Below are positions 866 through 62,327 of a DNA stretch of 64,000 nucleotides, one piece after another (positions within the stretch are counted from its first letter, which is position 1; each line of letters begins with the position of its first letter). Below the pieces are notes generated by a model. That model searched no databases. It had not been told where the DNA came from and saw nothing but the letters and a program-made list of their open reading frames with translations. This stretch comes from Diadophis punctatus similis (Eukaryota > Chordata > Lepidosauria > Squamata > Dipsadidae), in the NCBI GenBank assembly GCA_023053685.1, contig JALIGW010000001.1, positions 229,420,934-229,484,933 of the forward strand, written 5' to 3'. A program made the translations under genes and the position numbers.

Positions 866-1034
866 ACCTTATGACCACAATTGAGCCCAAAATTTTGGTT
901 GCTAAGCAAGAGCATTGTTAAGTGAGTTTCACCACATTTTACAAGTTGGGCACGCCCACCCGATCACATGACCGCCATGTCCACCAAGCCACGCCCACAG
1001 AACCGGTAGGGAAAATTTTTAGATTTCACCACTG
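866..1034. mobile_element. TIR element end fused to a GAAA-adjacent module
   Basis: This contains the TTATGACCACAATTGAGCCC module typical of the TA-type TIR family below. It ends in GAACCGGTAGGG...TTTCACCACTG, a hAT-like terminus. The partner terminus is not found to the left within the window. The same module follows a GAAA tract at 61343. Confidence 0.6.
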
Positions 1035-4947: not shown

Positions 4948-52100
<47,153 letters not shown>

Positions 52101-58837: not shown

Positions 58838-58903
58838 GCCTAAGCAGGGGGTTGGACTAGAAGACCTCGAGGTCCCTTCCAACTCTGTTGTTGTTATCAT
58901 CAC

Positions 58904-58951
<48 letters not shown>

Positions 58952-58953
58952 TA
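58838..58953 (+). mobile_element. CR1 3'-end fragment with ATC microsatellite tail, nested
   Basis: AGGGGGTTGGACTAGAAGACC and TCCCTTCCAACTCTGTTG are the CR1 3' terminus, followed by about 15 ATC units. It sits inside the coding part of the larger CR1 copy. Confidence 0.75.
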
Positions 58954-59941
58954 TCTTGATGAATACAAATCACCAGGACCGGATGGATTACACCCCAGAG
59001 TACTAAAGGAGCTGGCAGATGTCATCTCAGAACCACTGCACCACATCTTTCAAAATGCTGGAACACTGGGGAACTACCAGAGGACTGGAAAAGAGCTGAT
59101 GTGGTTCCCATCTTCAAAAAAAAGGGGGGGGGGAACTGACCCAGGAAACTACAGACCAATCAGCCTAACATCAATACCCAGGAAGATACTGGAAAAGATA
59201 ATAAAAAAAACAGATCTGTCAACACCTAGAAACGAGTAAAGTAATAACTAGCAGCCAGCACGGGTTTTTAAAAAACAGATCATGCCAAACCAGTCTCATT
59301 TCATCTTCAACACCGTGACTAAATTAGTAGACCAGCGAAACACTGTGGGCATAATATACCTAGACTTCAGCAAGGCATTCGACAAAGTAGACCATAACCT
59401 ACTTCTTCGTAAGCTAGAGAAAAGTGGGATAGACAACCTCACCACCAGATGGAACCACAATGGCTGGCCAACCATACTCAACGAGTAGTCCTTAATGGGT
59501 CTAAGTCCACATGGAGAGAAGTAAGCAGTGGGGTACCACAAGGCTCCATCTTAGGCCCAGTACTCTTTAATATCTTTATAAATGACTTAGATGAAGGAAT
59601 AGAAGTGGAACATACCAAATTTGCAGATGACACTAAACTGGCAGGAATAGCTAACACCCTAGAACAGTGATTCCCAAAGTGGGTGGTACCGCCCCTCGGG
59701 GGGCAGTGGGAACCCTCACCTCACCCTTAGGGGGGCGGTGAGAGGCAAGGGTGGCGACGGGGCGGTGAGAGGGGCCAGGGGAGCGGTAGGTGGTTCGCCA
59801 TGCTTTTGCACTTGAAGCTCCCTCGCGTTCCTCGCTCTTATGTGCAGGGCAGCCCATTCTGAAAGAAAATGCAAGATGTTTTCTTTCAGAATGGGCTGCC
59901 CTGCACACAAGAGCGTGGAATGCGATGGAGTTACAAGTGCT

Positions 59942-60120
59942 AGGTACTGAGCGTGGTACAGCGATGAGGGAAGCCGACCGCTCCCGAAGCTGCTCGAGCG
60001 AGCCCTCGCAGATCCGTGGGAAGGCCCCGCTGCGGAAGCTGCGCATGCGCGGACTTTCCCGCCCAGCATCCCCAGCGCCTAGCAACCCAGCGCGCGTAAT
60101 TCACCGGGCTCCCCTCTGGC
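59942..60120 (+). promoter_or_regulatory. CpG-rich promoter-like segment upstream of the RSPH14-like exon
   Basis: It is dense in CpG, with a GCGCATGCGC (NRF1-type) palindrome at 60041-60050 and CCTAGCAACC at about 60078, an RFX X-box-like half site common in ciliary gene promoters. It was probably captured with the exon. Confidence 0.5.
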
Positions 60121-60319
60121 ATGGTGCACCCGCAGATCTCAGCCCAGCTGCCCCCCGACATTGACCCCACCAAGGCGCCTGTGGCCTTCGGCCGCCAAGG
60201 CCTCCCCAAACTCAATGAAGAGCTGCAGCACCCCGAGCTGCTGACACGGCAGCCGGCCTTGATGGCGCTCTGCAACCTGGTGCACGACCCGGAGAATGCT
60301 TAACAAGCCATTGGCCTGG
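60121..60319 (+). pseudogene. RSPH14: Captured first coding exon of RSPH14 (radial spoke head 14 homolog), nonsense-broken
   Basis: The ATG at 60121 opens MVHPQISAQLPPDIDPTKAP, then VAFGRQGLPKLNEELQHPEL and LLTRQPALMALCNLVHDPE. This matches the N-terminus of RSPH14, an armadillo-repeat protein of the ciliary radial spoke (human has PPDIDPTKAAIAYG and SKLNEELQSRDLLTRQKALMAL). A TAA at 60301-60303 stands where the family has Tyr. The frame then goes on QAIGL and reaches a donor G|GTGAGC at 60320. The splice donor is kept, so this is genomic DNA, not a retrocopy. It lies inside a hAT element, upstream exons are not expected, and no second exon follows. Confidence 0.82.
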
Positions 60320-60350
60320 GTGAGCGGTGGTGGCGGCCTGGCCACGGCTG

Positions 60351-60493
60351 GCGGGAGGGAAGGGAAGGGAGGGAAGAAGGAAAGAAAAAGGAAAGAAAAA
60401 GAAAGAGAGAAGGAGGAAGACAGAAAGAAAGAAAGAGAAAGAAAGAAAAAAAGAAAGAAAGAAAGAAAGAAAGAGAAAGAAAGAAAGAAAGAA

Positions 60494-60565
<72 letters not shown>

Positions 60566-61342
60566 AAAAATGATGGTAGGAAGGAAGGAAGGAAGATAGA
60601 CAGAAAAAGAAAGGGAGGGAAGAAGGAAAGAAAGAAGAAAGAAAGAAAGATGGTAGGAAGGAAGACAGACAGAAAAAGAAAGGAGGGAGGAGAGGGAAGG
60701 GAGGGAAGAAGGAAAGAAAAAGAAAGAAAGAAAGCGAGGGAGGGAGGGAGGAAGAAAAAGAAAGGAAAGAAAGAAAGGAAGAAAGGAAGGAAGGAAGGAA
60801 GGAAGGAAGGAAGGAAGGAAGGAAGGAAGGAAGGAAGGAAGGAAAGAAAGAAAAAGAAAGATTGTAGGAAGGACGGAAGACAGACAGAAAAAGAAAGGAG
60901 GGAGGGAAGAAGGAAAGAAAGAAAAAGAAAGATGGTAGGTAGGTAGGAAGGAAGGAAGACAGAAAAAGAAAGGGAGGGAAGAAGGAAAGAAAAAGGAAAG
61001 AAAGGAAGGAAGGAAGAGGGAGGAAGGAAGGAAGACAGACAGAAAGAAAGATGGTAGGAAGGAAGACAGAAAAAGAAAGGAGGGAGGGAAGAAGGAAAGA
61101 AAAAGGAAAGAAAGGGAGGGAGGGAGGAAGAAAGAAAGAAAGATGGTAGGAAGGAAGGAAGACAGAAAGAAAGAAAAAGATGGTAGGTAGGAAGGAGACA
61201 GACAGACAGAAAGAAAAGATGGTAGGAAGGAAGGAAGGTAGACAGAAAGAAAAGAAAGAAAGAAAAAAAGATGGTAGGAAGAAAGACAGAAAGAAAAAGA
61301 AAGAAAGAAGGGGGAAGGTAGAGAAGAAAGAACGAAAGAAAG
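60351..61342. repeat. GAAA/GGAA/AGAC complex microsatellite, about 1 kb
   Basis: It is an AG-rich tract with pure GAAA and GGAA runs and repeated AGATGGTAGGAAGGAAGACAG blocks. It begins in what would be the RSPH14 intron. The long ORFs on either strand are repeat artefacts. Confidence 0.95.
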
Positions 61343-62327
61343 ACTTATGACCACAATTGAGCCTAACATTTTGGTTGCTAAGCAAGAGCGTTGTTAAGTG
61401 AGTTTCATCATACTTTACAAGTTGGCCACGCCCACCCGGTCACCTGACTACTAAGCTACAGCCACCTGAGGGGTTGGGGTGGGGGGTGGTGAGGATGAGT
61501 TTGTAGCACCAAGGGGGCGATGGACTGAAAAAGTTTGGGAACCACTGCCCTAGAAGATAGGCTCAAGATCCAGATGGATCTTGACAGACTTGAGCGCTGG
61601 GCCCTATCTAACAAAATGAAATTCAATGCAGAGAAAAGTAAAGTCCTACACTTAGGTAAGAAAAACCAAAAGTATACATATAAACTGGGTGAAACCAGGC
61701 TTAATAGCAGTGACTGTGAGAGGGATCTTGGAGTCCTAGTGGACAACCAGCTAAACATGAGCCAGCAGTGTGCAGCGGCAGCCAAAAAAGCCAATGCAAT
61801 CCTAAATTGCATCAACAGGGATACAATCAAGATCAAGTGAGGTACTAATACTACTCTATAAAGCCTTAGTTAGACCGCACCTGGAGTATTGCATTCAGTT
61901 TTGGTCATCACACTATTAAAAAGATGTCGAGACTCTAGAAAAAGTGCAGAGGAGAACAACCAGGGTGATTAGGGGACTGGAGACTAAAACATATGAAGAA
62001 CGGTTACAGGAACTGGACATGGCTAATCTAGTTAAGAGAAGGACCAGGGGAGGCATGATAGCAGTGTTTCAATATTTGAAGGGCTGCCACAGAGAGGAGG
62101 GGGTCAAGCTATTCTCCAAAGCACCTGAAGGACAGACAAGGAATAACGGATGGAAACTGATCAAGGAGAGATTCAACCTAGAAATAAGGAGGAACTTTCT
62201 GACAGTGAGAACAATCAACCAATGGAACAGCTTGCCTTAGGAAGTTGTGGGAGCTTCATCACTTGAGACTTTCAAGAAGAGATTGGACTGCCATTTGCCA
62301 GAAATGGTGTAGGGTCTCCTGCTTGAG

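Follow-up and report, generated by a model that had tools for sequence, protein, structure and literature searches.

The question raised by this locus is whether a piece of a host gene now lying between transposon ends was carried there as the load of a mobile element and, if so, from which gene it came and how widely it has spread. The window, the whole 64,000-nucleotide stretch of Diadophis punctatus similis DNA analysed here, contains at 59665-61547 an element that an earlier, sequence-only reading had interpreted as a hAT transposon carrying the promoter and first exon of RSPH14, which we take to be a sperm-tail and cilia gene, and inserted into a CR1 LINE. The features of the element and its surroundings are as follows, in window coordinates.

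58900-59664, plus strand: left flank of a CR1-like LINE, reverse transcriptase part (outer limit approximate)
59657-59664 and 61548-61555: left and right copies of the target-site duplication CCCTAGAA, perfect over 8 bp
59665-61547: non-autonomous hAT-type element, with terminal inverted repeats (TIRs) and the perfect CCCTAGAA duplication
59665-59807, plus strand: hAT left end, consisting of the TIR (59665-59678, CAGTGATTCCCAAA) and then GC-rich subterminal sequence
59808-59940: palindrome of 133 bp, part of the hAT, with 62-bp arms and a 9-bp loop (DNA fold z -14.9)
59947-60120, plus strand: captured RSPH14 5' flank and 5' UTR, CpG-rich, from the alignments with the native gene and P0015
60040-60051: NRF1-like motif TGCGCATGCGCG, exact
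60121-60319, plus strand: captured RSPH14 exon 1, with ATG and 66 codons plus 1 nt, phase and donor as in the native gene
60301-60303, plus strand: TAA stop in the exon, where the family consensus codon is Tyr
60320-60325, plus strand: exon 1 splice donor GTGAGC, identical in the native gene, with the GT at 60320-60321
60320-60359, plus strand: start of captured RSPH14 intron 1, about 40 bp
60360-61343, plus strand: polypurine (GAAA/GGAA) microsatellite, with 95% purine across 60357-61345
61344-61547, plus strand: right part of the element, a repeat-shared segment and then the hAT right end
61534-61547: right TIR, an inverted copy of CAGTGGTTCCCAAA that pairs with the left TIR at 13 of 14 positions
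61548-62320, plus strand: right flank of the CR1-like LINE (outer limit approximate)

When the whole window was scanned blind for inverted ends of 14 bp (one mismatch at most) flanked by identical 8-bp sequences, seven pairs were returned, among them the ends of the 59665-61547 element; 40 first-order Markov surrogates returned none. The hAT superfamily is defined by short TIRs of 10-25 bp (PMC3942097); the TIRs of this element are 14 bp long with 13 of 14 positions matching, and the 8-bp duplications are perfect in 34 of 40 scored copies and have at most one mismatch in 36. Removal of the element and one duplication joins the CR1 flanks through a single CCCTAGAA into one open frame, and the Pfam family RVT_1 spans the joint (residues 9-110 of the joined product, joint at residue 70, E = 1.4e-14), which confirms that a hAT-type element split the CR1 reverse-transcriptase frame. 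The ends, the duplication and the insertion into the LINE were thus correctly recognised from the letters alone. CR1 is used here in what we take to be its accepted definition. The open reading frames listed over the element include no transposase frame by eye. The segment at 61344-61449 matches window positions 868-972 (105 bp, 91%), where the other repeat likewise follows a GAAA tract, and the right side of the element may itself be composite, given this likeness.

The captured segment is recognised at the protein level. The 60 residues preceding the stop match PDB RSPH14 chains (E = 7.8e-19 and 3.1e-15), and a Crotalus adamanteus RSPH14-like protein matches the exon at 61 of 67 positions, the best among the snake RSPH14 matches listed; the search for full-length relatives gave 155 matches, 120 of them listed. 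Absence of RSPH14 similarity had been named in the sequence-only reading as the result that would overturn it; clear protein matches were found instead, and, together with the GT at 60320-60321, they uphold the N-terminal exon and its donor. In the alignment with the native gene, the RSPH14-derived DNA occupies 59947-60359 (413 bp), so that the first placement at 59942-60350 was right as to location and is replaced as to limits. At the left junction (59946/59947) hAT sequence ending in CAAGTGCTAGGTA is followed by CTGAGC, and at the right junction (60359/60360) GGGAGGG is followed by AAGGG, with the purine repeat beyond. P0015, a 237-aa open reading frame covering the 5' UTR, exon 1 and the first part of intron 1, aligns with 59947-60348 at 105 of 136 identical residues (E = 4e-63, one two-residue gap). 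Because this alignment covers upstream DNA as well as the intron start, the captured load is genomic, as first proposed, and the alignment with the native gene includes the same parts.

These features bear on the proposal that the copies are retroposed or segmental duplicates of RSPH14 that gained hAT ends later. The gene piece alone would be compatible with a duplicate, but the segment contains 5' flank and intron and is not cDNA, its limits are sharp (bordering hAT sequence at its left limit and a purine repeat at its right), and its left junction recurs at 919 places, which leaves this proposal with next to no probability. A processed pseudogene is a spliced cDNA without a promoter, and a retrocopy of this kind is rejected here by the presence of 5' flank and intron. 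Helitrons have neither TIRs nor target-site duplications, and capture by a Helitron is rejected by the presence of TIRs and 8-bp duplications. Searches for other contents of the element were negative within their scope: Pfam assigned no family to the captured exon, a minus-strand frame across the TIR, palindrome and promoter gave 96 candidates in the protein search with none at E 0.001, IMG/VR returned no match to the left end and five pattern stretches for the exon with none confirmed, and the phage records contained no match.

The parent gene was located in the assembly of the window's own genome (1.78 Gb, 419 contigs). RSPH14 lies on the minus strand of contig C362, with exon 1 at 2772408-2772608 and later exons found on the same contig by protein search (5 matches, 12 candidates). 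By contrast, no RSPH14 exon other than exon 1 was found in the window with four snake RSPH14s and P0015 as queries. The window as the native RSPH14 locus, the second outcome that had been named as fatal to a capture, is rejected, since it holds exon 1 only and the parent with its later exons is on C362. The tail of P0015 also matches an unrelated repeat at 40655-40735. The native 5' flank is without 28 bp that the transposon family has kept (locus L053, positions 5756-5693, on C362). P0015 aligns with the window through this stretch, which suggests that the 28 bp were lost from the native gene after the capture. The mobile copies may, in this stretch, retain an older state of the RSPH14 promoter region.

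The chimeric structure is not confined to the window. The hAT-RSPH14 left junction GTTACAAGTGCTAGGTACTGAGC (23 bases, at most two mismatches) occurs at 919 places in the genome (439 and 480), with none for a reversed-pattern control, and the 100 places listed are scattered along contigs C1 and C2, a pattern that argues against a single tandem array or segmental duplication. A first-look search with 59942-60350, as the sequence-only reading had proposed, gave 1064 candidates, of which the best 40 (the window copy and 39 others fetched with flanks) were scored. Each of them aligns over practically the full query with 89-100% identity (100% being the window copy itself), and together they lie on 16 contigs; being the top matches to the window's own segment, they favour well-kept copies and overstate the kept features. 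The hAT left end of the window element is found at the left of other copies too, and 36 of the 40 have both ends and an 8-bp duplication, all 36 duplications being different (34 perfect). The consensus of the duplications is nTCTAGAn, and of its central pair the T is present in 35 and the A in all 36; nTCTAGAn is presumably the label of a known hAT group. Four copies (L028, L030, L044 and L045) have no recognisable pair of ends. The two-ended copies are 1345-2646 bp long; most of this variation comes from the purine tract, which measures 257-1499 bp, and from how many palindrome units are present. Across all 40 copies there is one unit in 15, two in 22, three in one, four in one and none in one; in two-unit copies the units together with the spacer edges make up a larger inverted repeat, 157 bp long (87%).

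A second set consisted of eight loci, the first exact junctions listed. All eight contain RSPH14 sequence, five over the full 415-bp consensus, and five have both ends with perfect duplications, the right end not being found within 1.5 kb in three. They are more decayed than the 40 (non-CpG 1.1-3.8%, CpG 14-23%), and their exon has a stop in four of the eight, lacks the aligned end in two, contains an inner gap in one and lacks the aligned ATG in one. One chimeric structure is thus present at several loci with different duplications, and host gene DNA of an identified parent lies between TIRs; on this sequence evidence the window element is confirmed as a member of a real multicopy Pack-hAT family. 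The hAT left end alone (30 bases, at most three mismatches) occurs at 2003 places, with none for the control. The wider hAT family may therefore include elements without the RSPH14 load, the two counts having been made at different stringency such that no proportion can be derived from 919 and 2003.

It is very probable that a non-autonomous hAT captured the RSPH14 piece and then transposed the chimera to about 900 places, including the CR1 in the window. Capture came first and transposition second, because the copies share the chimeric structure but have different duplications. For animal Pack-TIRs present in single copy, the route chiefly proposed is gap filling, which needs no transposition (PMC8277862), and it would allow a different history, in which an old hAT already sitting in the CR1 suffered a break that was mended with RSPH14 sequence, and the copy never moved with its insert. 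This is most improbable, since the same left junction is found at 919 places and the same segment in 40 copies with 36 different duplications; in-place repair would explain the founding event at most, and for the window copy it is rejected by the junction shared among differently placed copies. The sequence-only reading of Pack-type capture followed by a jump is sustained by the same counts.

For capture followed by transposition, the steps may be pictured as follows. A hAT-type element with nTCTAGAn target sites acquired the RSPH14 piece; the anatomy and both junctions can be read directly, and the route was presumably a template switch or the repair of a gap within the element. The load comprised 5' flank, 5' UTR, ATG exon 1, splice donor and some 40 bp of intron 1, with the right switch point probably within the GGGAGGG stretch that continues as purine repeat. 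A transposase, presumably supplied in trans, then carried the chimera, ends included, to some 900 places, a movement to which the ends, the different duplications and the junction count attest. At the source of the burst the exon was open and the 5' flank rich in CpG.

The age and fate of the copies were assessed from the 40 scored copies. Their non-CpG distance to the consensus has a median of 1.65% and a mean of 1.59% (2.6% for the window copy), half the mean pairwise non-CpG divergence is 1.53%, in a star-like pattern, and 100 of 135 non-CpG variants are seen once. The near-equality of the pairwise and consensus distances and the predominance of single variants point to a burst from one or a few sources. 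The consensus differs from the native gene at 9 of 271 non-CpG sites (3.3%) and 7 of 114 CpG sites, and, if rates were equal, the capture would be about 1.5 times as old as the spread. An earlier estimate based on arginine losses relative to P0015 (10 of 22 lost, none gained) was discarded as superseded by the family consensus.

CpG sites differ from the consensus in 750 of 4467 cells (713 of them transitions) and other sites in 193 of 12104, so that CpG sites decay about ten times faster. CpG loss is 17.2% in the promoter, 16.7% in the exon and 14.7% in the intron, the promoter being no better protected than the exon. In the exon, 193 nonsynonymous changes were seen against 251 expected (0.77) and 130 synonymous against 150 expected (0.87). 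From the CpG pattern we infer that the copies were methylated after landing, and this pattern together with the exon changes is consistent with near-neutral decay by drift under little or no selection. Among the 40 copies the ATG is present in 39, an exon without stop or indel in 27 and the donor GT in 38, the exceptions for the GT being L010 and L037. The family consensus has an open exon and splice donor, and the stop at codon 61 occurs in three of 48 copies (the window copy, L027 and L062), the others with this codon having Tyr; the TAA fits later decay in the window copy, one of the two explanations first offered for it.

The consensus exon, MAHPRISAQLPPDIDPTKAPVAFGRRGLPKLNEELQHPELLTRQPALMALCDLVHDPENAYQAIGLG, has a single change (Pro45) relative to the Crotalus protein; of 133 RSPH14-like proteins among the matches listed, 115 could be aligned in register, and all of these lack Pro45. 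The native exon differs from the consensus also at E36 and A65. At residue 36 Erythrolamprus also has E and the remaining snakes carry the family's Q. At residue 65 the family's G is common to Crotalus and P0015 and other snakes have R, S or D, and A65 therefore looks native-specific.

The promoter region was examined with definitions of the NRF1, E2F, YY1 and X-box motifs that we take to be the usual ones. When 59942-60120 is shuffled by mononucleotides, an NRF1-like motif such as that at 60040-60051 turns up in 5 of 5000 shuffles. Three sites are common to the consensus and the native gene: an NRF1-type site TGCGCGTGCGCG (exact in 8 of the 40 copies), an E2F-type site TTTCCCGC (exact in 27) and CTAGCAAC (exact in 35); 13 of the 40 have the NRF1-type site if a looser form is allowed. 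No full RFX X-box with fewer than two mismatches was found in the window's captured segment, and a ciliary X-box is rejected, as the best full match has two mismatches and matches with exactly two occur 210 times in the window (four spacings). The specifically ciliary promoter of the sequence-only reading was not supported: what was captured appears to be a CpG-rich promoter region that is 'ciliary' only through the function of its parent.

If a copy lies in sense ahead of a splice acceptor, it could serve as a mobile promoter with a first exon. We hold tentatively, with the balance somewhat against it, the possibility that transcripts begin in some copies and are spliced to exons further downstream. 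In favour, the consensus has a CpG-rich 5' flank, an NRF1-type motif also present in the native gene, an ATG, an open exon and a donor, the exon is free of stops and indels in 27 of 40 copies, and the bat element HelibatN3, a parallel case, drives real transcripts (PMC4778049). Against this, the CpG decay of the promoter is as strong as that of the exon and the NRF1 site is exact in 8 of 40 copies, both of which make it unlikely that most copies kept a lasting promoter activity in the germline; nor was an annotated fusion protein seen among the proteins aligned in register, none of which carries Pro45. Some of the roughly 900 cassettes may nonetheless now start new transcripts or N-terminal RSPH14 fusions, making the family a genome-wide exon trap and the hAT counterpart of HelibatN3, an outcome we regard as conceivable but rather doubtful. 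If true, a hAT would have spread some 900 cassettes of promoter, ATG exon and splice donor from a cilia and sperm gene through a snake genome.

Several known systems are comparable. A survey of 100 animal genomes identified 370 Pack-TIRs, 208 of them on hATs; only four of the Pack-TIRs were multicopy (1.4%), most single-copy ones having seemingly formed in place; the frog Pack-hAT-N8_XT carries 291 bp of 5' UTR in three copies moved by transposition (Tan et al. 2021, PMC8277862). Like these animal Pack-hATs, the RSPH14 family has hAT ends and a duplication around host gene DNA of known parentage, but unlike those described there it has about 919 junctions and a load of 5' flank, ATG exon and donor (PMC8277862). 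It is also like plant Pack-MULE and Pack-TYPE elements in carrying host gene pieces between transposon ends (PMC8903248). The earlier remark that such capture is better known in plants than in vertebrates is fair, yet the 208 animal hAT cases are already published (PMC8277862). HelibatN3 carries the NUBPL promoter, six codons and a splice donor, has been shown to trap exons, and some native transcripts start within its insertions (Grabundzija et al. 2016, PMC4778049); for M. lucifugus the same paper cites Helitron captures that involve the promoters of 15 genes and amount to 4,690 copies (PMC4778049).

Both HelibatN3 and the RSPH14 family carry the promoter, N-terminal coding start and donor of one gene at high copy in a vertebrate. 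By contrast, HelibatN3 is a rolling-circle Helitron with six codons, while the RSPH14 family has hAT ends, 8-bp duplications and 66 codons, and the transcripts shown for HelibatN3 are hypothetical for the RSPH14 family. The RSPH14 family thus resembles HelibatN3 in load and scale and is not a Helitron, and HelibatN3 appears to be its closest working parallel. The portions of the open-licence literature available to us describe no vertebrate hAT family this large with a captured promoter and exon, and no capture of RSPH14. With about 900 copies from a single capture, the family suggests that capture by cut-and-paste elements can attain the scale of Helitrons in a vertebrate. It also offers a natural experiment in what becomes of a CpG-rich promoter region after landing at some 900 places, and the known parent, the open-exon consensus and the many young copies make mobile-promoter rewiring of nearby genes testable with RNA data.

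The window contains other elements with comparable ends. Short elements at 18027-18446, 19539-19900 and 40628-40762 are bounded by inverted ends of 14 bp with no more than one mismatch and by perfect 8-bp duplications, the last element being an almost complete palindrome. Two short hAT-like elements, at 7083-7324 and 50491-50758, differ in their ends (CAGTGGTTCTCAAC and CAGGGGTGAAATGC) and have in common a 109-bp core (87%) with palindromic NRF1- and YY1-like motifs, and a 33-bp piece of this core is present in the hAT-like element at 46520-46775. These likenesses suggest that internal modules are exchanged between hAT families. Long open frames at 27350-31764 appear retroelement-like by eye. 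Of four exact NRF1-type palindromes found in the window, three (7186, 18310 and 60040) lie within hAT-like elements and one (7830) outside, and hAT-like elements make up 5.8% of the window bases.
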